The notes under the pieces: generated by a model
The model's database searches: none
What the model saw: the letters and a program-made list of their open reading frames with translations, nothing else
Told to the model about the DNA's origin: nothing
In this document: positions 3,136-63,500 of the stretch, piece after piece
Layout: the number at the start of each line of letters is the position of its first letter
How positions within the stretch are numbered: the first letter of the stretch is position 1
Assembly: GCF_950295315.1 (NCBI RefSeq)
Contig: NC_080179.1
Location: 69,749,115-69,813,114, forward strand
Length of the DNA stretch: 64,000 bases
Reading direction: 5' to 3'
From: Erinaceus europaeus
Lineage: Eukaryota; Chordata; Mammalia; Eulipotyphla; Erinaceidae
Translations under genes and position numbers: made by a program

Positions 3136-3202
3136 CTAAAACACAATATCAAAGAAGAAGAAGAAGAAGAGGAGGAGGAGGAGGAGGAGGAGGAGGAGGA
3201 GG
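3101..3202. repeat. (TG)n then (AAG)n/(AGG)n microsatellites
   Basis: TG repeat to about 3134, a short spacer, then AAG units passing into GGA units from about 3150. It lies between two SINE-B copies and probably grew from their A-rich tail. Confidence 0.9.
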
Positions 3203-21228: not shown

Positions 21229-21990
21229 GGGCTGGGCGGTAGCACCCCGGATTATGCTCACAAAGCCGGAAGCACAAGGACCCGCATAAGCATCCCTGTT
21301 CTTCTTCTGGCGTTTGCCCTTCTTCCATAGCCAGTCAACAGTGTCAGGTTGAGCCCGATGTAAAGTTTCGAGACCTCCTTTGAATCTGGAGAGGTGGCAG
21401 TCATTGACTATGTGGGTCATAGTCTGTCTGCAGCCGCAGGGGCAGTTCGGGTCGTCTCTGGCTCCCCAGCGATGGAACATAGCGGCGCACCGGCCATGGC
21501 CTGTTCCATAGCGATTGAGGAGGGCCCGATCATAACGTGCTAGGTCAAAGCCGGGTTGACGCTCGCAGGGGTCTGTGATGAGGTGTTTGTTCTTGACCTC
21601 AGCTGACTGCCAACTCTGTTTCCAAGAGTCTGGAACAGAGAAGTTCAGTGTAGGCGTAGGGGACCAGATTGGGTGAGGAGACATCAAGCGTTGGACAGGG
21701 TGGGCGAAGATATCCGCTTAGATTGGCAGGTCCGGTCGGGCGTAGACGTGGGAAATGAACTTAGATGATGCCGCATCCCTGTTAAAGCCCCCAGCTCCCG
21801 AACTGCAGGGGGGGTCACTTCACAGGTGGTGAAGCAGGTCAGCAGGTGTCTATCTTTCTCTCTTCCTTTCTGTCTTCAATTCCTCTCTAGATTTCTCTCT
21901 GTCCTATCCAGCAACAACAACTGTAATGGCAACAGTAAAAAAAAAAAAAAAAAAAGTAAATGATGGCAACAACAAGGGCAACAAAATGGG
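21229..21990 (+). mobile_element. SINE-A interrupted by a JL insertion
   Basis: Left part 21229-21300 (GGGGCTGGGCGGTAGCACC to GCATCCCTGTT). The right part resumes at 21773 (GCATCCCTGTTAAAGCCCCC) through the CT-rich block and poly-A at about 21938-21954. Removing 21301-21772 and one duplicate restores SINE continuity, so JL is younger than this SINE. Confidence 0.92.
21301..21772 (-). mobile_element. JL non-LTR retrotransposon, 5'-truncated 3' end
   Basis: On the minus strand an open frame runs through the end of the ORF: PIWSPTPTLNFSVPDSWKQS, then QPGFDLARYDRALLNRYG, HRWGARDDPNCPCG and RQTMTHIVNDCHLSRFKGG. The cysteine/histidine pattern (CPCG...H...C) is typical of the C-termini of jockey/CR1/I-type LINEs. 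Flanks duplicate GCATCCCTGTT (21290-21300 and 21773-21783). The 5' junction has about 7 bp of microhomology (GCATCCC) with the intact element at 52.34 kb. The normal TAG stop is CAG here, so the frame reads on into the SINE. Confidence 0.88.
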
Positions 21991-25225: not shown

Positions 25226-26029
25226 CTTGCAAAAATAAACATGCATTCCAAGTTAAAGGAAAAAGATAATGAAGTAACACAGTAGCATATTCTTTATAAT
25301 AATAAACAATGATATCATTGAAAAGCGCCAATCATCGATAATAAAGGGATACACATAGTTATTTATTAACAACACAAGTGTATTTCTCATATGATCACAT
25401 ATCAAAAATTATTAACGGTCAAATGTTAACCCCAGTTGGAACAATGAAGCCACTTGTACAACTTCTGTAGTGAGGAGAAATGAAACTAACAGCTCTTTGT
25501 CATAGCTTCTCGTTTACTGTTGTCTTCATACACCTGAACTAACTTTGTGATCCTCTGTGTATTATGTTCATCCCATCGGGTGGGCCAGTCATTTCCAGCT
25601 AATGGTTGTGTTATCTTCAGGCAGCCCTCCATTATAGAAGCAGACTAGGCATGATTAAAGATAGGAATCTGGAGAAAGAGAACTCCACCTGCCAATTGGG
25701 ACCGAGGGACAGTTGCTCAAGAGTTGCTGAGGAGAGGAGTCCTCAATAGCAGGGTCCTGTCACCAGTCCTCTGAGAGTGGAAGGCCTAATCTATGTCTTC
25801 ACCTTACAGTCCGAGTTCCAGCTGACCTTCCTAACTCCTTGTTGAGTATGTACTATATGTCAGATTTTGTTCTAAAGGGTTTCTAGCATTTATTAATTTG
25901 AATCTAATGAACCACCCCAACAAGTTACTGTGTTTTTAAAAATATTTTCAGTGCATAGATTAGGAAACTAAAATTGAGTTTCCCTTGAGGCCATATTTGA
26001 AGCGATGGGCCAAATCTAGGTCTTCCTAA
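25226..26029. other. No recognisable feature
   Basis: Unique-looking sequence. No repeat or domain recognised. Confidence 0.5.
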
Positions 26030-26771
26030 GACTCTCTCTGTCTCTCTCACCCTCTCCCTCTCCCTCTCCCTCTCCCTCTTCCCTCTCCCTCTCCCTCTTC
26101 CCTCTCCCTCTCCCTCTCCCTCTTCCCTCTCCCTCTCCCTCTCCCTCTCCCTCTCCCTCTCCCTCTCCCTCCTCCTCTCCCCTCTCCCTCTCCCCTCTAC
26201 CTCTTCTTCTCCCTCTTCCTCTCCTCTCTCCCTCTTCCCTCTCCCCTCTCCCCTCTCCCTCTTCTCTCTCCCTCTCCCTCTCCCTCTCCCTCTCCTTCTC
26301 CCTCTCCCTCCTCCTCTCCCCTCTCCCTCTCCCCTCTCCCTCTTCTCTCTCCCTCTCCCCTCTCCCTCTCCCTTTCCCTCTCCCCTCTCCTTCTCCCTCT
26401 CCCCTCTCCCTCTCCCTTTCCCTCTCCCCTCTCCTTCTCCCTTTCCCCTCTCTCTCTCCCTCTCCCCTCTCCCCTCTCCCTCTTCCTCTCCCCTCTTCCT
26501 CTTCCTCTCCCCTCTCCCCTCTCCCCTCTCCCTCTCCCTCTCCCTCTCCCTCTCCCTTCTCCTTCTCCTTCTCCCTCTCCCTCTCCCCTCTCCCTCTCCC
26601 TTTTCCTCTCCCCTCTCCTTCTCCCTCTCCCCTCTCCCCTCTCCCCTCTTCCTCTCCCCTCTCTCCTCTCCCTCTCCCTCTCCCTCTCCCTCTCCCTCTC
26701 CCTCTCCCTCTCCCTCTCCCTCTCCCTCTCCCTCTCCCTCTCCCCTCTCCCTCTCCCCTCTCCCTCCCTCT
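26030..26771. repeat. (CCCTCT)n polypyrimidine minisatellite
   Basis: Imperfect hexamer array. By eye, the plus strand from 26200 to 26771 contains only C and T (572 nt); earlier purines occur at 26049 and 26199. The minus-strand 298-residue open frame across it (25925-26821) is low-complexity Gly/Glu/Arg and not a gene. It abuts the CT-rich end of a SINE-D, its likely seed. Confidence 0.97.
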
Positions 26772-26925
26772 GTCACAGAAACAGGGAAGCAGAGAGGCTG
26801 AGAGAGGGTAAAAGGGAACACAGCATCAAAGCTTCCTTCAATGTGATGGGGCCTGACTAGAACCTGGGTTGCCTACATGGCAAAGCAGCACAATTTCCAA
26901 GTCAGCTAATTTGCCAGCCAAGGAC
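26772..26925 (-). mobile_element. SINE-D
   Basis: CACAGCATCAAAGCTTCC, TTCAATGTGATGGGGCC, AACCTGGGTTGCCTACATGG, CAGCACAATTTCCAAG and TCAGCTAATTTGCCAGCC. Confidence 0.75.
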
Positions 26926-27983: not shown

Positions 27984-28043
27984 ATCGTGGATTTCTTTTT
28001 CTTAGCTTTTACTCATTTATTAATTAGAATCAGAGGAGGAGAG

Positions 28044-28118
28044 TCTGATGTAAAGTACCTCAGGCTCAACCTGACGCTGTTGACTGGCTACGGAAGAAGG
28101 GCAAACGCTAGAAGAAGA
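28044..28118 (+). mobile_element. JL, very short 5'-inverted copy
   Basis: Contains the JL 3' end (CTCAACCTGACGCTGTTGAC, GGAAGAAGGGCAAACGC, TAG plus AAG tail). The first dozen bases (CTGATGTAAAGT, 28046-28057) are the reverse complement of ACTTTACATCAG, which normally lies just upstream, so the 5' end is inverted. Flanked by AGAGGAGGAGAG at 28032-28043 and 28119-28130. Confidence 0.8.
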
Positions 28119-28130
28119 AGAAGAGGAGGA

Positions 28131-35125: not shown

Positions 35126-35200
35126 TGTCAACATTTGTATTTTAAGCCATTAACACTTGAATTGGAGTCTCTACAGCTAATGTTTCAGGCTTACACAGTT

Positions 35201-35252
35201 CTTCTTCTAGCGTTTGCCCTTCTTCCATAGCCAGTCAACAGTGTCAGGTTGA
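35201..35252 (-). mobile_element. JL, minimal 52-bp insertion
   Basis: Only the last part of JL: minus strand TCAACCTGACACTGTTGAC, GGAAGAAGGGCAAACGC, TAG, then AAGAAG. Exact 12-bp duplication GCTTACACAGTT at 35189-35200 and 35253-35264. It defines the 3' terminus of the element. Confidence 0.9.
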
Positions 35253-35264
35253 GCTTACACAGTT

Positions 35265-46758: not shown

Positions 46759-48032
46759 TTTAAAAAATTTTTATTTTATTTAATTTATTTTTTTATAAAT
46801 AATTTATTTCTTTATTGGGGAATTAATGTTTTATATTCAACAGTAAATACAATAGTTTGTACATGCATAACATTCCCCAGATTCCCATTTAACAATACAA
46901 CCCCCACTATGTCATTCATCATCTTTCATGGACCTGTATTCTCCCCACCCACCCACCCCAGAGTCTTTTACTTTGGTGTAATACTCCAATTCCATTTCAG
47001 GTTTGACTTGTGTTTTGTTTTCTAATCTTGTTTTTCAACTTTGGCCTGAGAGTGAGATCATCCCATATTCATCCTTCTGTTTCTTACTTATTTCACTCAA
47101 CATGATTTTTTCAAGGTCCATCCAAGATCGGCTGAAAACGGTGAAGTCACCATTTTTTACAGCTGAGTAGTATTCCATTGTGTATATATACCACAACTTG
47201 CTCAGCCACTCATCTGTTGTTGGACACCTGGGTTGCTTCCAGGTTTTGGCTATTACAAATTGTGCTGCCAAGAACATATGTGTACACAGATCTTTTTGGA
47301 TGGATGTGTTGGGTTCCTTAGGATATATCCCCAGGAGGGGAATTGCAGGGTCATAGGGTAGGTCCATTTCTAGCCTTCTGAGAGTTCTCCAGACTTCTCC
47401 ACAGAGGTTGGACCAATTGACATTCCCACCAGCAGTGCAGGAGGGTTCCTTTGACCCCACAACCTCTCCAGCATTTGCTGCTGTTACCTTTTCTGATGTA
47501 TGACATTCTCACAGGAGTGAAGTGATATCTCATTGTTGTCTTGATTTGCATTTCTCTGACAATCAGAGACTTGGAGCATTTTTTCATGTGTTTCTCGACC
47601 TTTTGGATCTCTTCTGTGGTGAATATTCTGTCCAAGTCCTCCCCCCATTTTTGTATGGGGTTATTTGTTGTCTTGTTGTTGAGTCTGGCAAGCTCTTTAT
47701 ATATGTTGGTTATTAAACTCTTATCTGATGTATGGCATGTAAAGATCTTCTCCCATTCTGTGAGGGGTCTCTTGGTTTGGGTAGTGGTTTCTTTTGCTGT
47801 GAAGAAGCTTTTTAATTTGATGTAGTCCCATAGGTTTATATTTGCCTTAGTCTTCCTTGTAATTGGATTAATTTCATTGAAAATGTCTTTACAATTTATG
47901 CGGAAAAAAGTTCTGCCAATATTTTCCTCTAAGTATCTGATAGTTTCTGGTATAACATCCAAGTCCTTGATCCACTTGGAATTTACTTTTGTATTTGGTG
48001 AAATACAGTGATTCAGTTTCATTCTTCTGCAT
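46759..48032 (-). mobile_element. Young 5'-truncated L1 with perfect 15-bp target duplication
   Basis: GGCAAACATCATTTT stands at 46744-46758 and 48033-48047. The plus-strand left end is T-rich, followed by the 3' UTR including CTTTATTGGGG (AATAAAG in sense). The ORF2 C-terminus follows: a frame at 47351-48037 ([38 protein letters not shown]) and one at 47035-47460 ([31 protein letters not shown]). A 2-bp deletion near 47395 separates the two frames; the copy at 61 kb has GT there. Nearly identical to 60.6-61.7 kb over the shared part. Confidence 0.96.
47035..48032 (-). pseudogene. L1 ORF2 C-terminal part, frameshifted
   Basis: Codes for the region from just after the reverse transcriptase through the CCHC-like C-terminal domain. 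Broken by the 2-bp deletion near 47395 and lacking everything upstream, so no functional product. Confidence 0.92.
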
Positions 48033-48047
48033 GGCAAACATCATTTT

Positions 48048-49285
48048 AAAATTGGCACATTATGAGAATGGAATGTGCTCAAAAATTAACTGGGAGTTGA
48101 AAACACAAGAGCTGTGCAGCTGTGACTCTAGGCTTGGACTCAGCAAGGAAGACAGTCCCTTCCTGGCCACCCTGCAAATCCAGATGAGTTCCCTCAGGAG
48201 TCACAGACAATACTTTCTGTCCTAACAATGTCTCATGTGGACAATGAGCCAAACTGATGCAGGTGCACTGTCATAATAAGCTCTCCCATCCAAACACCAG
48301 CATAACATTTCTCATCAGGATCTTTTGAATTATTGAGAAAAGATTATTGTACCCAGGATATAAACAAGAATACTAAAGTTTTCTGAGGCTTAGAGGTGTG
48401 AGGTCATAGAAAATATATAATGGGCTCAGTCCCCACTTCCATTTTTGGCACAGGACTCCTGAAATACTTGTTATTTCCAAGTGGATAATAGTGCAGGGGA
48501 CATATTTAATTGTATTACCTGGACTTTGATCCTCATTCCTGAAACCAAGCTCTTAAATCACTTGGAATTCCGTAGATGAGAGGAATATCTTCTATTCTAC
48601 CAAATTGCTAAGGTAACTCTGGGTTAGCTCTGCATGCTCGTCATCAGAAAGAGGGAGCTATATTTAAAAGCCTAGGATTTTTCACCTCATTCCCCATTTT
48701 CCAGAAAGGGAGGAAGAGAGAGAGAGAGAGATGGAGTAATCACATCTATTTGATACAACTCTATAAAAGTCCCCCAGAGTATGCTGTTTGAAGAGCTTCC
48801 CGGTTCACAAAAAAAAAAGTAGAACTGATGATAGAACCAAGGCCAGAGTGGGCAGAGCTTTTCCACATACCTGATCCTGCACATCTCTTTTAACTCAATG
48901 TTCATCTGCATCCTCCATTTTTTAAATAATAAGTTGACAAAAGGTAAATAAATTGTTTTCCTGAGTTCTGTGCGCTGCTTTAGTAAATTTTCTGAGCCCT
49001 CTGGAGAGGTGATGGAAACCTCAGTTTTATAATCAGCTGGTCAAAAGCACAGGTAACATTTGTAATTGGCATCAGAAGTAGGAACGTTGTACAGTCTCAT
49101 TAGATTCTGCTTCTAAAGCTGTGAGAACTGTCTCCACGTAGATAGTGTCAGAGTTCAGTTCTAGTGTAGGGCATAGAGGGGCTGTCACAGAACTAACTTT
49201 CGTGGTGTCAGGGGAGTTATGAATGCAGTAGTTAGGTGAAAGTAAAAGAGAATCATGGAGAAAATACTGGCATTGGGCTACTCAC
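48048..49285. other. No recognisable feature
   Basis: Unique-looking, about 1.2 kb, with a short (GA)n near 48715. No domain-bearing frame. Confidence 0.5.
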
Positions 49286-49293
49286 GTGGTATA

Positions 49294-49712
49294 GTGGGAT
49301 GTATTGGATCGACCTTCCCATGGTGCATCCCGTGAGTACCCATTCATTGGGGAAACTGACGATCCTTCCTAGCCGACTGAATCCACATGGATCCCAGTCA
49401 CTTTCAAAGCCAGCAACAAGCAGCTCCTGACAGCTTTCAAGCTGTTGGTCCTGCTCTTCGAGTCCTCCAACTTAATGTTGAGGGGCTGTCCTTTGCCAAA
49501 CGCATTCTTATTGGTCAATTGGCGATACAGCATCAGGCAGATGTTATCTGCCTACAAGAAATACATATAGCAGTCGATGACAGACAGACTATGACCCACA
49601 TAGTCAACGACTGCCACCTCTCCAGATTCAAAGGAGGTCTCGAAACTTTACATCAGGCTCAACCTGACGCTGTTGACTGGCTATGGAAGAAGGGCAAATG
49701 CTAGAAGAAGAA
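49294..49712 (+). mobile_element. JL, internally deleted copy keeping both ends
   Basis: Flanked by GTGGTATA at 49286-49293 and 49713-49720. It holds about 93 bp of leader, the start of the ORF, then jumps near 49578 (GATGACAGACAG) straight to the C-terminal part. The 3' end is TAG plus AAGAAGAAG. Confidence 0.9.
49387..49704 (+). CDS. JL in-frame deletion ORF, 105 aa (N-terminus fused to C-terminus)
   Basis: Residues 1-60 include LRVLQLNVEGLSFAKR and ADVICLQEIHI, which match the first motifs of the exonuclease-endonuclease-phosphatase (EEP/AP-like) domain used for target nicking by LINEs. The rest is the terminal RQTMTHIVNDCHLSRFKGG and the WLWKKGK end. The endonuclease remainder and the whole reverse transcriptase are missing, so it cannot mobilise itself. 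The start shown is the first ATG after the leader and is shared with the copy at 51.3 kb. Confidence 0.7.
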   Translation: MDPSHFQSQQQAAPDSFQAVGPALRVLQLNVEGLSFAKRILIGQLAIQHQADVICLQEIHIAVDDRQTMTHIVNDCHLSRFKGGLETLHQAQPDAVDWLWKKGKC

Positions 49713-49833
49713 GTGGTATAAGTACCACAGCAGAAATGAGTAAAATTGGAACTTTAACTTATGGAGGTCAGAATGTTAACTTGGAAGCAATGCAGATGCA
49801 CAAAGGCAGATGACTGATTAAGAAAGTTGTGGT

Positions 49834-50109
49834 GGGAGTCGAGCGGGTTAAAGCGCAGGTGGCACAAAGAACAAAGACCAGCGTAAGGATCCCGGTTCTA
49901 GCCCCCAGCTCCCCACCTGCAGGGGAGTCCCTTCACAGGAGTTGAAGTAGGTCTGCAGGTGTCTTTCTCTCCCCCTCTCTGACTTCCCCTCCTCTCTCCA
50001 TTTCTCTCTGTCCTATCCAACAATGACAACAACAATAAAACAAGGGCAACAAAAGTGAATAAATAAATAAATATTTAAAAAATTTAAAAAAAAAGAATTT
50101 ATCTTGTCA
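49834..50109 (+). mobile_element. SINE-A with 11-bp target duplication
   Basis: AAAGTTGTGGT at 49823-49833 and 50110-50120. The head is shortened (GAGCGGGTTAAAGCGCAGG). The tail is followed by about 15 bp of extra sequence (GAATTTATCTTGTC) before the duplicate, possibly transduced. Confidence 0.92.
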
Positions 50110-50368
50110 AAAGTTGTGGTATATACACACAGTGAAATACCACTTGAAGAAATCATGCTTATTTAGTGTGATATTGGATGATCTCTCTCATACATGGAAC
50201 TTAAGCAACAAGGGCAGAAAGGGAAAACATAAAAGTGGAACTTGGACTAAGTGTGGTGTTTGTACCAAAGCAAAGAATTCTAGGGACAGAGGACATAGGA
50301 GGTCTCGGTGGAGAGGGCACTGTGGTCCTGGTGCATGATGGTGGAAAAGGTCCTAAATTGGGAGAATC

Positions 50369-50650
50369 TTTTTTTTTAATATTTATTTTATTTATTTATT
50401 CCCTTTGTTGTCCTTGTTTTATTGTTGTAGTTACTATTGTTGTTGTCGTTGTTGGATAGGACAGAGAGAAATGGAGAGAGGAGGGGAAGATGGAGGGGGG
50501 AGAGAAAGACAGACACCTGCAGACCTGCTTCATCGCCTGTGAAGCGACTCCCCTGCAGGTGGGGAGCCGAGGACTCAAACCAGGATCCTTAGGCTAGTCC
50601 TTGCACTTTGCGCCACCTGTGCTTAACCCACTGCGCCACCGCCCGACTCC
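50369..50650 (-). mobile_element. SINE-A with target duplication
   Basis: TGGGAGAATC at 50359-50368 and TGGGAAAATC at 50651-50660. Full length. Confidence 0.94.
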
Positions 50651-50765
50651 TGGGAAAATCAGTTGCAGACACCGTTCCCAAGGAGATGAGACATTGTATT
50701 CATATGACAACAAGTGTGCTATAAACCATTAGCCCCAGCCTCGAATAAAATAATGAAATGATAAA

Positions 50766-51034
50766 AATATTTTTAAAAGTGTCTATAGCTCTACCATTTC
50801 CTGACTATGTAGCCTTCTGCAAGTTTCTCCATTCACTAAGACATGGCTACATCATTAAACAAGAGAAAATGCCTCTGATATACTTCTTCTAAGGGTGGAA
50901 TCACATGTGAAGGCAGTTTGTCAACGTAACATTTTATTCTGTGTACATATTATATGTGTTCCTCATTTTCGGTTGAAGGATAGGTCTTCCCAAGATATTC
51001 AGATCTCCATGATCCGTCACTTTGGTAAATATAT
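50766..51034. other. No recognisable feature
   Basis: Short unique-looking gap. Confidence 0.5.
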
Positions 51035-51231
51035 AAGTTTTTAAGTTCTTTATTGGGGCATTAGTGGTTTACAGTTGGCAGTAAAATACAGTAGTTTCGA
51101 CATACATAACATTTCCCAGTTTTCCACATTAAAATTCAACCCCCTCTAGGACCTCCTTTGCCCATGTTCCGGGACCTGAATCCCCCCCAACTCACCCCAG
51201 AGTCTTTTACTTTGGTGCAATACACTAACTC

Positions 51232-51408
51232 GACCTTCTCGTGGTGCATCCCGTGAGTACCCATTCATTGGGGAAACTGACGATCCTTCCTAGCCGACTG
51301 AATCCACATGGATCCCAGTCACTTTCAAAGCCAGCAACAAGCAGCTCCTGACAGCTTTCAACCTGACGCTGTTGACTGGCTATGGAAGAAGGGCAAACGC
51401 TAGAAGAA
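51232..51408 (+). mobile_element. JL, 177-bp internally deleted copy inside an L1
   Basis: Leader (GGTGCATCCCGTGAGTACC, GATCCTTCCTAGCCGACTG), ORF start, then CAGCTTTCAA joined to CCTGACGCTG and the JL 3' end. Breakpoint microhomology TCAA. AACTC occurs at both borders (51227-51231 and 51409-51413), a short, less certain duplication. Confidence 0.88.
51308..51403 (+). CDS. JL micro-ORF, 31 aa, in-frame N/C fusion
   Basis: Eighteen N-terminal residues (MDPSHFQSQQQAAPDSFQ) are fused in frame to the thirteen C-terminal residues (PDAVDWLWKKGKR) and the normal TAG stop. No domain remains. Function unknown, possibly none; noted because the frame is preserved. Confidence 0.45.
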   Translation: MDPSHFQSQQQAAPDSFQPDAVDWLWKKGKR

Positions 51409-51943
51409 AACTCCAGTCCAAGTTCTACTTAGTGTTTTCCCCTCTGACCTTGTTTTTCAGCTTCTGTCTATGAGTGAGATCATCTCATATTCATCCTTTT
51501 GTTTCTGACTCATCTCACTTAACATGATTCTTTCAAGCTCCATCCAAGAAGTGAAGAAGGTGAATTCACTCACCATTTTAATAGCTGAGTAGTATTCCAC
51601 TGTGTATATATCCCACAACTTTCTCAGCAACTCATCTGTTGTTGGATACCTGGGTTGCTTCCAGATTTGGCAATTAAAAATTGTGCTGCTATAAACATAG
51701 GTATAGACCAATCTTTTAGGATGGATATGTTTGGTTCCTTAGGATATATCCCAAGGAGAGGAATTGCAGGGTTATAAGGTCGGTCCACTTCTAGCCTTCT
51801 AAGACTTCTCCAGACTGCTATCCACAAGGGTTTGATCAATGGTAAATAGATCATTTTGACCTGAGGTCACTTTAACTGCCTAGAAGAATGAGAATTGAGA
51901 TGTTCACCAAGACTTAGGATTTTGACCACAGATCAGCAACTTT

Positions 51944-52819
51944 AAGCTCAACTCGCGTGAGCTTAATGTTGTAGCTTGACGATACAAGAATCAGGCATGA
52001 AGCCCAGCCAGTCTATCTTGGCGTTACTCTCGATCGCACCCTGTCATTTCACGAACATCTCATAAAAACTGCAGCAAAGGTGGGCGCGAGGAATAACATC
52101 ATTGCAAGACTGGCCAGCTCCTCATGGGGCGTGAGCGCTTCCACACTACGATCATCATCTCTGGCATTATGCTATTCCACTGCAGAATAATGTGCCCCAG
52201 GATGGTTCCGTAGCCCCCATGTCCACTTGGTCGATTCCAAATTATACTCCTCCATGAGGATAATTTCTGGAACCATCCGTTCCACCCCGGTTCCATGGCT
52301 GCCAGTTCTTAGCAACATCGCCCCGCCAGATAATTCGTCGGGATGCGGCATCATCTAAGTTCATTTCCCACATCTACGCTCGACCGGACCTGCCAATATA
52401 CGCGGATATCTTCGCCCACCCTGTCCAACGCTTGATGTCTCGTCACCCAATCTGGTCCCCTACGCCTACACTGAACTTCTCTGTTCCAGACTCTTGGAAA
52501 CAGAGTTGGCAGTCAGCCGAGGTAAAGAACAAACACCTCATCACAGACCCCTGCAAGTGTCAACCCGGCTTTGACCTAGCACGTTATGATTGGGCCCTCC
52601 TCAATCGCTATCGAACAGGCCATGGCCGGTGCGCCGCTATATTCCATCGCTGGGGAGCCAGAGATGACCCGAACTGCCCCTGCGGCTCCAGACAGACTAT
52701 GACCCACATAGTCAACGACTGCCACCTCTCCAGTTTCAAAGGAGGTCTCGAAACTTTACATCAGGCTCAACCTGACGCTGTTGACTGGCTACGGAAGAAG
52801 GGCAAACGCTAGAAGAAGA
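51944..52819 (+). mobile_element. JL, longest copy in the window (876 bp, 5'-truncated)
   Basis: AGCAACTTT at 51935-51943 and 52820-52828. It covers the region after the reverse-transcriptase active site to the 3' end. Readable in pieces: PVYLGVTLDRTLSFHEHL, NNIIARLASSSWGVSAS, then an open frame at 52432-52812. Confidence 0.9.
51950..52812 (+). pseudogene. JL ORF, C-terminal half, frameshifted
   Basis: YLGVTLDRTLSFHEHLIKTA and the following helix-rich segment (TLRSSSLALCYSTAE) belong to the thumb and post-RT region of jockey/CR1-type polymerases. The last 126 residues (52432-52812) are open: PGFDLARYDWALLNRYRTGH, FHRWGARDDPNCPCGSRQTM, HIVNDCHLSSFKGG. About nine residues in ten match the copy at 21.3 kb. 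Small indels and a stop break the frame between about 51975 and 52430. The ORF ends at TAG only a few bases from the element end, so there is practically no 3' UTR. Confidence 0.85.
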
Positions 52820-52828
52820 AGCAACTTT

Positions 52829-53802
52829 CCATTGGAGAAACCTGTCTCTATGATGGTATAAATATCACCTTACATATCCTCTGAACTTAGTTAACCTCTT
52901 CTTACCCTATAAGTCTCCATTCTTTCTTCTTGGAGTCCCAGGACTCTGTTCCCATTCCCTAGGTCAGGATATATGCCCTTACTTCCCTCACTGGAATTAG
53001 AATTCAAAATCATGTAAGTCCACCATACAGATAAAACTAGGTTTGTTTGTTTCTTCCCCTACCAATTTTCCTTATGTTATTTGATTATTCCACTAAACAC
53101 ACACACACACACACACACACACACTCCCTGAAGTGCAAGGAGGATCTTTTCCCTCCTCCCCAACAACTGCCAACAGTAACTATGGCTTCCCTGAGACATC
53201 CATTTTTTAAAAGTAGATAGTCAATTCATTATTTCCTGCTCCCAAATCCCTAGGGTTCTAAAACCACAAGGATTTCTAATTCATTTAGCAGCAGAATCTT
53301 ACCTGAATTGACAGGCCTATTTATTATCTTGTTTTCCATTATTAAATGTGAATATTCATTAGTCACACAGCAGAAAGATCAACATAATTACAAGGTTATG
53401 AGTTGCTGCCACAAACCTGGTGGAGATGTCTGCACTAGTTGCCAACACTGCACAATATCTTTCCAAACCCAAACCCCCTGTATCTCAGTCACATATGGCC
53501 AAAGAACTCTGTTGGGGGTAACCATAGTACTTACCATTTGGACTAGGATCTAACCCTAACCACCCGAAGGCAGCATGTGACAAATATGGGTGAACAATGT
53601 ATTGATGTTGAAGGGTAGGTGGTTTTGGGGTCAGCCCCAGACTAGATCTGTTTCAAAACAGTTTTAGAGAAGCCTAGGAACTTTCACTTTCATCACCTTG
53701 GACTCTGGTCTTGAAATGCATATGGCTTTTTAAATAAGTCTTTTGAGAACAACTAATGTGAGTGCTAGAGTCAGAAGCCATGATAGAAAATGAATGAGCG
53801 GG
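52829..53802. other. No recognisable feature apart from (CA)n at about 53097-53126
   Basis: Unique-looking, about 1 kb. Confidence 0.5.
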
Positions 53803-60543: not shown

Positions 60544-63500
60544 CTTTTTTTTTTTTTTTCCCATTTAACAATACAACCCCCACTATTTCATTCATCATTT
60601 TTCATGGACCTGTATTCTCCCCACCCACCCACCCACCCCAGAGTCTTTTACTTTGGTGTAATACTCCAATTCCATTTCAGGTTCAACTTGTGTCTTTTCT
60701 AATCTTGTTTTTCAACTTCGTCCTGAGAGTGAGATCATCCCGTATTCATCCTTCTGTTTCTGACTTATTTCACTCAACATGATTTTTTCAAGGTCCATCC
60801 AAGATCGGCTGAAAATGGTGAAGTCACCATTTTTTACAGCTGAGTAGTATTCCATTGTGTATATATACAACAACTTGCTCAGCCACTCATCTGTTGTTGG
60901 ACACCTGGGTTGCTTCCAGGTTTTGGCTATTACAAATTGTGCTGCCAAGAACATATGTGTACACAGATCTTTTTGGATGGATGTGTTGGGTTCCTTAGGA
61001 TATATCCCCAGGAGGGGAATTGCAGGGTCATAGGGTAGGTGCATTTCTAGCTTTCTGAGAGTTCTCCAGACTGTTCTCCACAGAGGTTGGACCAACTGAC
61101 ATTCCCACCAGCAGTGCAGGAGGGTTCCTTTGACCCCACAACCTCTAGAGCATTTGCTGCTGTTACCTTTTCTGATGTGTGACATTCTCACAGGAGTGAA
61201 GTGATATCTCATTGTTGTCTTGATTTGCATTTCTCTGACAATCAGAGACTTGGAGCATTTTTTCATGTGTTTCTCGACCTTTTGGATCTCTTCTGTGGTG
61301 AATATTCTGTCCAAGTCCTCCCCCCATTTTTGTATGGGGTTATTTGTTGTCTTGTTGTTGAGTCTGGCAAGCTCTTTATATATGTTGGTTATTAAACTCT
61401 TATCTGATGTATGGCATGTAAAGATCTTCTCCCATTCTGTGAGGGGTCTCTTGGTTTGGGTAGTGGTTTCTTTTGCTGTGAAGAAGCTTTTTAATTTGAT
61501 GTAGTCCCATAGGTTTATACTTGCCTTAGTCTTCCTTGTAATTGGATTCGTTTCATTGAAAATGTCTTTACAATTTATGTGGAAAAAAGTTCTTCCAATA
61601 TTTTCCTCTAAGTATCTGATAGTTTCTGGTCTAACATCCAAGTCCTTGATCCACTTGGAATTTACTTTTGTATTTGGTGAAATACAGTGATTCAGTTTCA
61701 TTCTTTTGCATGTTTCAACCCATTGTTTCCAACACCATTTGTTGAAGAGACTCTGCTTCCCCCATATAATAGTCTGGGCCCCTTTGTCAAAGATTAGATG
61801 TCCATACATGTGGGGCCTCATTTCTGGGCTCTCAATTCTATTCCACTGGTCAGTGTGTCTGTTCATGTTCCAGTACCAAGCAGTTTTGATGACAATGGCC
61901 CTATAATACAGTTTGAGATCTGGCAGTGTGATGCCTCCGGTTCTGTTCTTTTTTCTCAAGATTGTTTTGGCAATTCTAGGTCTTTTCTGGTTCCAGATAA
62001 ACATTTGTAGCATTTTTTCTATTCTCCTAAAAAATGTGCTTGGGATCTTGATGGGGATAGCATTAAATTTGTAGATGGCTCTGGGTAATATATTCATTTT
62101 GATGATGTTAATTCTTCCAATCCATGAACATGGAATATCTTTCCACTTCTTTGTGTCTTTTTCAATTTCTTTGAGTAGTGACTCATAATTTTCAGTATAC
62201 AAGTCTTTCACTTCTTTGGTTAGGTTTATTCCTAGATATTTTATTGTTTTAGTTGCTATAGAAAAAGGAACTGATTTCTGGATTTCAATTTCTTCTAACT
62301 TAGTGTTTGCATAGAGGAATGCCACTGACTTTTGAATGTTAATTTTATAGCCTGACACATTACTGTATTGCCTGATGATTTCCAAAAGCTTCTTGCTGGA
62401 TTCCTTAGGTTTTTCCATGTATACTATCATTTCATCTGCAAATAAGGAGAGTTTGACTTCTTCTCTTCCAATCTGTATGCCTTTAATTCCTTGCTCCTGC
62501 CTGATTGCTATGGCAAGAACTTCCAACACTATGGTGAATAGTAATGGTGATAGTGGGCAGCCCTGTCTAGTGCCTGATCTGAGTGGAAATGCTTCCAGTT
62601 TTTCACCATTGAGTATGATATTGGCTGTAGGTTTGCTATATATAGACTCCACTATCTTCAGGAATTTTCCATCTATTCCTATTTTTTGTAGTGTTTTGAT
62701 CATAAAGGGATGTTGTATTTTGTCAAAGGCTTTCTCTGCATCTATTGATATGACCATGTGGTTTTTGGTCTTGCTTTTGTTGATGTGGTGGATCACATTG
62801 ATTGATTTACGTATATTAAACCAACCTTGCATGCCTGGGATAAACCCCACTTGGTCATGATGAACATTTTTTTTGATATACTGCTGTATCCAGTTAGCTA
62901 GAATTTTGTTCAATATTTTCGCATCTATGTTCATCAGAGATATTGGTCTGTAGTTTTCTTTTTTGGTTGTGTCCCTGTCTGCTTTTGGTATCAGGGTGAT
63001 GTTGGCTTCATAGAAGCTGTCAGGGAGTATTCCAGTGTCTTCAATCTTCTGGAAGACTTTTAAAAGTAGAGGTATTAGTTCTTCTTTGAAAGTTTTGTAG
63101 AATTCATTTGTAAAACCATCTGGTCCAGGACTTTTATTTTTGGGAAGATTTTTGATAACTGTTTCAATTTCATTAGCTGTGATGAGCCTGTTCATGTTAT
63201 CCACTTCCTCTTTACTTAGTTTTGGAAGTTGGTAGGTATCTAGGAAATCATTCATTTCTTCCAGGTTCTCTAGCTTGGTGGCATATAGTTGTTCATAGAA
63301 GCCTCGCATGATATGTTGAATTTCTGCAGTGTCTGTTGTGATTTCTCCTCTTTCATTTACTATCCGATTTATTTGTGTCTTCTCCCTTTTTTGTTTTGTG
63401 AGTCTGGCTAAAAGGTTTGTCGATTCTGTTTACTCTTTCAAAGAACCAACATTTACTTTCATTGATCTTTTGTATGGTTTTCCTATTCTCAATGTTATTT

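Follow-up and report, generated by a model that had tools for sequence, protein, structure and literature searches.

What kind of mobile element left six closely similar fragments in 64 kb of hedgehog DNA, and what does the one fragment with a complete beginning suggest about how it moves? The window, by which we mean the whole 64,000-nucleotide stretch analyzed here (Erinaceus europaeus, contig NC_080179.1, positions 69,749,115 to 69,813,114), holds six copies of a retrotransposon without long terminal repeats (non-LTR), and we consider it likely that these are recent insertions of one Vingi family of long interspersed nuclear elements (LINEs) together with its short derivatives, of the Vingi-1_EE and Vingi-1N_EE type, headed at the 5' end by a ribozyme. 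On a slight balance of probability, hedgehogs carry many mobile copies with a working ribozyme resembling that of hepatitis delta virus (HDV), the first in a mammalian retrotransposon, which would have been inherited from an ancestor of Vingi and the trypanosome Ingi elements and would cut Vingi RNAs and their short derivatives from host transcripts.

Six copies with a common 3' end

A blastn search of the copies against the window (E <= 0.1) recovered six, named here by their start positions, and found no seventh in the 64 kb; the sole extra matches were two of 15 to 16 nucleotides near 3153-3171, in a simple repeat. An earlier first-pass annotation had also counted six, at positions that differ from ours by a few bases at most. 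The copies and their main reading frames are as follows.

21298 to 21779, reverse strand: c21, a 5'-truncated 3' end inside a tRNA-type short interspersed nuclear element (SINE), with CAG at the stop codon position; target duplication AACAGGGATGC, 11 bp, exact
28044 to 28120, forward strand: c28, about 65 nucleotides of the 3' end, with part of the element in inverted orientation in front of it; target duplication AGAGGAGGAGAG, 12 bp, exact
35199 to 35254, reverse strand: c35, 3' end only, 56 nucleotides; target duplication AACTGTGTAAGC, 12 bp, exact
49296 to 49713, forward strand: c49, 5' end and beginning of the endonuclease, continuing directly into a C-terminal coding segment and an AAG tail, without the middle; 5' target duplication at 49286 to 49295 (forward strand), GTGGTATA, 8 bp exact, or with GT added 10 to 11 bp if an indel of one A relative to the 3' copy, GTGGTATAAGT, is allowed
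49381 to 49704, forward strand: c49 reading frame, 107 amino acids, in which the endonuclease N terminus passes in frame into the QTMTHIVNDCH region
51232 to 51410, forward strand: c51, about 179 nucleotides, 5' region joined to about 50 nucleotides of the 3' end, in the 3' region of an L1; target duplication AACTC, 5 bp only
51944 to 52821, forward strand: c52, possible endonuclease scraps (weak), then reverse transcriptase thumb to C terminus, internally deleted and with the frame broken; target duplication AGCAACTTT, 9 bp, exact
52264 to 52812, forward strand: c52 C-terminal frame, 182 amino acids, with a CPCG-X6-H-X4-C motif; the query for homology searches

The 3' end is common to all six copies, with AAG units after the stop codon; this codon is TAG in five copies and CAG in c21, so the pattern of TAG followed by AAG units that had been claimed for every copy holds for all but one. 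The AAG tail of c51 is AGAAGAAAA and merges with the target. Five of the six copies lie between exact target duplications of 8 to 12 bp, in agreement with the claim made for most of them, c51 having only its 5 bp. None of the six is full length. The shared 3' end with its AAG tail, the target duplications, and the loss of 5' sequence together identify the element as a LINE. These features, along with the inverted 5' piece of c28 and the copies that lack the middle, fit the usual products of target-primed reverse transcription. In such a process, the reverse transcriptase of the family would recognize the 3' end, and a nick able to pair with the AAG tail would be the starting point of copying.

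The copies differ little from one another. Divergence, computed for seven of the 15 possible pairs, ranges from 1.6 to 4.2%. The longest comparison, between c21 and c52, shows 20 differences in 478 sites, of which 13 are at CpG; once CpG sites are set aside, the count is 7 of 414. The remaining pairs are c49 and c52 (3 of 129), c21 and c49 (5 of 129), c49 and c51 (3 of 136), c28 and c52 (1 of 61), c35 and c52 (2 of 53), and c51 and c52 (1 of 51). The insertion sites were characterized by rejoining the flanks of each copy and comparing them with the window by blastn. For c21, 16 of 25 matches cross the joint, its own two flanks being among the 25; c21 therefore sits within a repeated SINE, as the claim that one copy interrupts a SINE had it. 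For c51, 5 of 11 matches cross the joint; among the four of these five that were listed, the one at 60624-60804 overlaps the 3' end of an L1 frame at 60712-63429. With the flanks of the other four copies, none of the 2 to 6 window matches crosses the joint. The description of the element as a LINE other than L1, active until recently and of a type unusual for placental mammals, is borne out.

A candidate ribozyme at the 5' boundary

Of the six copies, c49 alone has its 5' end complete, starting with GGGATGT directly after the duplication. In this one copy, the helices of the first 70 nucleotides can be folded in the order of the HDV ribozyme, a nested double pseudoknot of P1 to P4 with L3 and J4/2.

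49296 to 49365, forward strand: candidate HDV-like self-cleaving ribozyme, from a full-model match to Rfam RF00094 and our own descriptor
49296 to 49302 with 49325 to 49331, forward strand: P1, GGGATGT/GCATCCC
49306 to 49310 with 49361 to 49365, forward strand: P2, GGATC/GATCC
49312 to 49314 with 49322 to 49324, forward strand: P3, ACC/GGT
49315 to 49321, forward strand: L3, TTCCCAT in c49 and TTCTCGT in c51
49339 to 49342 with 49348 to 49351, forward strand: P4, CCCA/TGGG
49352 to 49360, forward strand: J4/2, GAAACTGAC

When 49280-49380 was scanned with cmscan, RF00094 (HDV_ribozyme) ranked first among 4227 Rfam families, its model positions 1-89 lying at 49294-49363. The E value of 0.26, divided by the 4227 families, comes to about 6e-5 for the HDV family alone in 202 nucleotides, and no HDV match was found in two control stretches of 101 nucleotides each (49381-49481 and 52500-52600). 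A descriptor of the HDV fold, run over both strands of the window, gave two hits when L3 was set to 7 to 8 nucleotides and three when it was set to 6 to 9, with 49296 in each set. Among 20,000 dinucleotide shuffles of the 85-nucleotide stretch, six gave any hit and none gave one within 2 nucleotides of the native start. The duplication places the start of the element at 49294 (8 bp exact) or at 49296 (10 to 11 bp, with the one-base indel), and P1 starts at 49296, so that the predicted cleavage lies at most two bases from the start of the element.

Several points weigh against this interpretation. The Rfam score of 20.3 bits is weak at an E value of 0.26 and a gathering cutoff of 50 (no Rfam family reaches its gathering threshold anywhere in the window), and the alignment puts a G, not the J4/2 cytosine 49356, opposite the C of the GCuAA stretch of the model. 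In a 3.7-kb Rfam scan with E up to 10, the HDV match is not listed, its scaled E value there being about 9.5 and the filters stricter, nor does the Rfam scan find an HDV match in c51, which lacks its first ~15 nucleotides and retains the ribozyme region from just before P3 onward, without the 5' strands of P1 and P2. The descriptor was composed after the sequence had been viewed, and the Rfam result is therefore the more independent test; a variant of the descriptor with its own L3 pattern gave no hits in the window, c49 included. The exact 5' boundary hinges on whether the duplication is read with its one-base indel, and the whole motif is present in one copy only. Finally, L3 has an A in c49 where c51 has a G. 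An R2 ribozyme of the sow bug, which is without detectable activity, carries C-to-A and G-to-A changes in L3 (PMC3774820), and because of this precedent, c49 itself may be inactive whether or not the family is.

A rival interpretation is that the copies are plain Vingi insertions in which the 5' region serves RNA polymerase II as an internal promoter, with CGTG as a downstream element, and the HDV-like fold is an accident or a relic without a role. The model for such a promoter is Pr77, with which L1Tc, an Ingi-clade element of Trypanosoma cruzi, starts; Pr77 is both a promoter and a proven HDV-like ribozyme and is shared by short partner elements (PMC4035085). It has CCACC at 16-20, four bases, and then CGTG at 25-28 (PMC4748587). 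Counted from 49296, the window element has GACC at 16-19 and, four bases further on, CGTG at 24-27 as spelled in c51 (CATG in c49), within one base of the position of the L1Tc promoter element, and the weak Rfam score, the J4/2 cytosine missed by its alignment, and the altered L3 base of c49 also speak for a promoter. Against a promoter alone, the four helices occur in the right order and begin at the end of the element, an arrangement that none of the 20,000 shuffles produced within 2 nucleotides, and the same 77 nucleotides of L1Tc serve as promoter and ribozyme, so the two roles are not exclusive. We regard a promoter with an accidental or relic fold as improbable. The HDV-like fold modeled here is, in our judgment, probably real, and the candidate ribozyme is a little more apt to be active in the family than not. 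If so, the first 70 nucleotides of the RNA would act as a self-cleaving ribozyme that cuts at the 5' boundary of the element, and this cut would free Vingi RNA from longer host transcripts.

The resemblance to L1Tc/ingi and their partners NARTc/RIME extends to an HDV-like fold at the very 5' end, an ACC-4nt-CGTG core in the same place within one nucleotide, and short truncated partners. The differences are that L1Tc encodes RNase H, which was found in none of seven Vingi-like relatives scanned, and that the host here is a mammal. We know of no HDV-like 5' ribozyme in Jockey elements. The CPEB3 ribozyme is likewise HDV-like and occurs in mammals (PMC8256844), but it resides in the intron of a host gene rather than in a mobile element. 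A 2024 paper describes retrotransposon ribozymes as unseen in mammals except for its own LINE-1 case, and two reviews mention R2 together with L1Tc or other LINEs but, in the passages concerned, no mammalian case (PMC8256844, PMC7761336). A ribozyme in Vingi was not found in the literature searched, which covered few subscription papers, and the authors of the 2011 Vingi paper may have noted the fold; papers in that literature that pair "Vingi" with "ribozyme" are, by title, all on alpha-synuclein. If confirmed, this would be a ribozyme of an established kind in hosts where it was not expected, an RNA feature linking animal Vingi to the trypanosome Ingi elements, and the copies would constitute a natural set of insertions in which to seek effects of a ribozyme on host transcripts.

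Two further observations concern this region. The J4/2 segment at 49352-49360 contains TGA, and a stop codon in J4/2 has been noted for 18 of 19 R2 elements (PMC3414825), which may be a matter of chance. A tRNA-type head of the element was also considered and rejected, as ARAGORN found no tRNA genes in 49000-53000.

A probable Vingi element and its protein relatives

The copies are very probably Vingi, an Ingi-related LINE, and not a new Jockey element as the first-pass annotation had proposed, which was probably the wrong clade. Unlike Ingi, Vingi is not known to encode RNase H. The family was described in hedgehogs in 2011 (Kojima, Kapitonov and Jurka, known to us through citing papers). One of these lists Vingi-1N3_EE with 311 copies under 1% divergence, records non-autonomous short Vingi-1N families, and treats hedgehog Vingi as a likely older horizontal transfer (PMC3183009). 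Elsewhere, an Anolis Vingi is listed as the partner of a SINE (PMC3747384), and Vingi is present in locust transcripts (PMC3391268). Vingi-1_EE and Vingi-1N3_EE of E. europaeus are, like the window element, a young non-L1 LINE with short derivatives in the hedgehog, for which horizontal transfer has already been suggested. A point against the assignment is that it rests on this literature, from which the identity of the window copies with these named elements is inferred. The LINE family itself is already known, and the main points of the first-pass annotation, horizontal transfer included, are already in print.

The protein relatives, a turtle among them, would fit this placement. A search with the C-terminal 182 amino acids of c52 yielded 11 homologues (E <= 0.001), of which the best scoring shares 52% identity across 87% of the query, with shorter fragments at 58% over 58% and 64% over 29%. 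A second search, with the relative P0001 as the query, returned 886 proteins, of which 120 were listed, ten of them with organism names. These ten named relatives among the matches listed come from an eel, a turtle, and eight insects, and all are less than 50% identical to c52 by blastp: 45% for the eel, 46% for the turtle (P0059, over 153 amino acids), and 43% for the aphid Sipha, followed by a gnat, another aphid, beetles, and moths at 31 to 40%. The top c52 blastp score among the matches listed, from any source, is 53% over 155 amino acids. A Pfam scan of seven relatives detected RVT_1 in four, no domain in three, and RNase H in none, full-length proteins not being included. These comparisons place the LINE in a lineage represented in reptiles, fish, and insects, without a close relative among the sequences searched. 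Relatives in viral contigs were suggested by a protein-pattern scan (4 stretches) and two alignment scans (18 and 21), and in prokaryote genome contigs by an alignment scan (97 stretches), of which tblastn confirmed none in either set; exact DNA patterns of the element are absent from both.

It is against this background that horizontal acquisition of a new Jockey-clade LINE from a tick, flea, or helminth has to be judged, and we consider it very improbable. The non-L1 protein does have insect relatives, and a 2025 survey of the African hedgehog reports 4476 "I-Jockey" LINE copies, 0.084% of the genome, without using the word Vingi (PMC12026660); these LINEs are presumably the same elements. 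On the other side, hedgehogs and reptiles are published hosts of Vingi, the 5' end has its counterpart in L1Tc, an Ingi element, and none of the ten named relatives among the matches listed, all below 50% identity, is from a parasite of mammals. Horizontal transfer was a sensible proposal, and one already in print, but the parasite donor finds no support among these relatives. A nematode-to-shrew transfer of RTE is a different case, not seen in the hedgehog (PMC6542046).

Possible short derivatives and neighboring repeats

A 5' region of 136 nucleotides is common to c49 and c51, at 97.8% identity, and has no blastn match in the other copies. In c49, the endonuclease fragment, which matches Pfam Exo_endo_phos at E 6e-4, below the Pfam cutoff, runs in frame directly into the C-terminal coding segment, the middle being missing, whereas c51 jumps to the 3' end earlier, at a shared TCAA. 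The traces of the endonuclease start in c52 are weak (22 columns at 86%, E 0.036; 10 nucleotides, E 0.89). The protein with an endonuclease start and a CPCG...H...C end that had been described is therefore not one intact protein in the window; its endonuclease fragment is found in c49 and its CPCG terminus in c52. Two of the six copies, perhaps three if the weak case of c52 is counted, thus have 5' material without the middle. The layout of a short internally deleted element (SIDE), with both ends and no middle, is that of c49, and c51 shows it apart from its first ~15 nucleotides.

Such copies may reflect a shortened RNA that, with the ribozyme and the 3' end retained, would still be mobile, like the R2 SIDEs and RIME/NARTc of the Ingi clade. 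In Drosophila, the R2 SIDEs are non-autonomous elements that combine an HDV-like ribozyme at the 5' end with a 3' end, and TbRIME is cited as a parallel (PMC3414825); they differ in that R2 is site specific in 28S ribosomal DNA, whereas the window copies lie at different sites. We find it rather doubtful that c49 and c51 are instead two separate one-off deletions, arising during or after the insertion of longer copies, and not members of mobile short families. Their junctions differ from each other, as separate events would have it, and the TCAA overlap at the c51 junction is of the kind seen in a deletion or a template jump; yet non-autonomous Vingi-1N families are in print (PMC3183009), and two copies less than 2 kb apart both keep the 5' region and the 3' end. 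Target duplications are compatible both with mobility of a short RNA and with later deletion of the middle.

As to how the pieces were joined, splicing is disfavored as the origin of the missing middle in c51, whose two parts share TCAA and, by eye, show no GT at any possible boundary of the junction; a template jump or a deletion is favored there. The 5' side of c28 (28041-28056) carries part of the 3' region of that copy in inverted orientation, matching at 15 of 16 bases (E 6e-4), and the start of c52 (51942-51968) has a short, imperfect inverted repeat, which is weak (E 0.11). These inverted pieces suggest that the Vingi machinery engages in self-priming or twin priming, in which the end of the complementary DNA would be primed within the element.

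The window also contains L1 sequence. The ORF2 frame at 60712-63429 (reverse strand, 905 amino acids) aligns over residues 6-903 with residues 375-1272 of LINE-1 ORF2 chains in the PDB, at about 1346 bits, and belongs to a young L1, which marks the host as a mammal; more L1-like frames occur at 47035-48040. A simple repeat of about 0.9 kb, rich in GA/CT, occupies 25925-26872 and is open in several frames on both strands.

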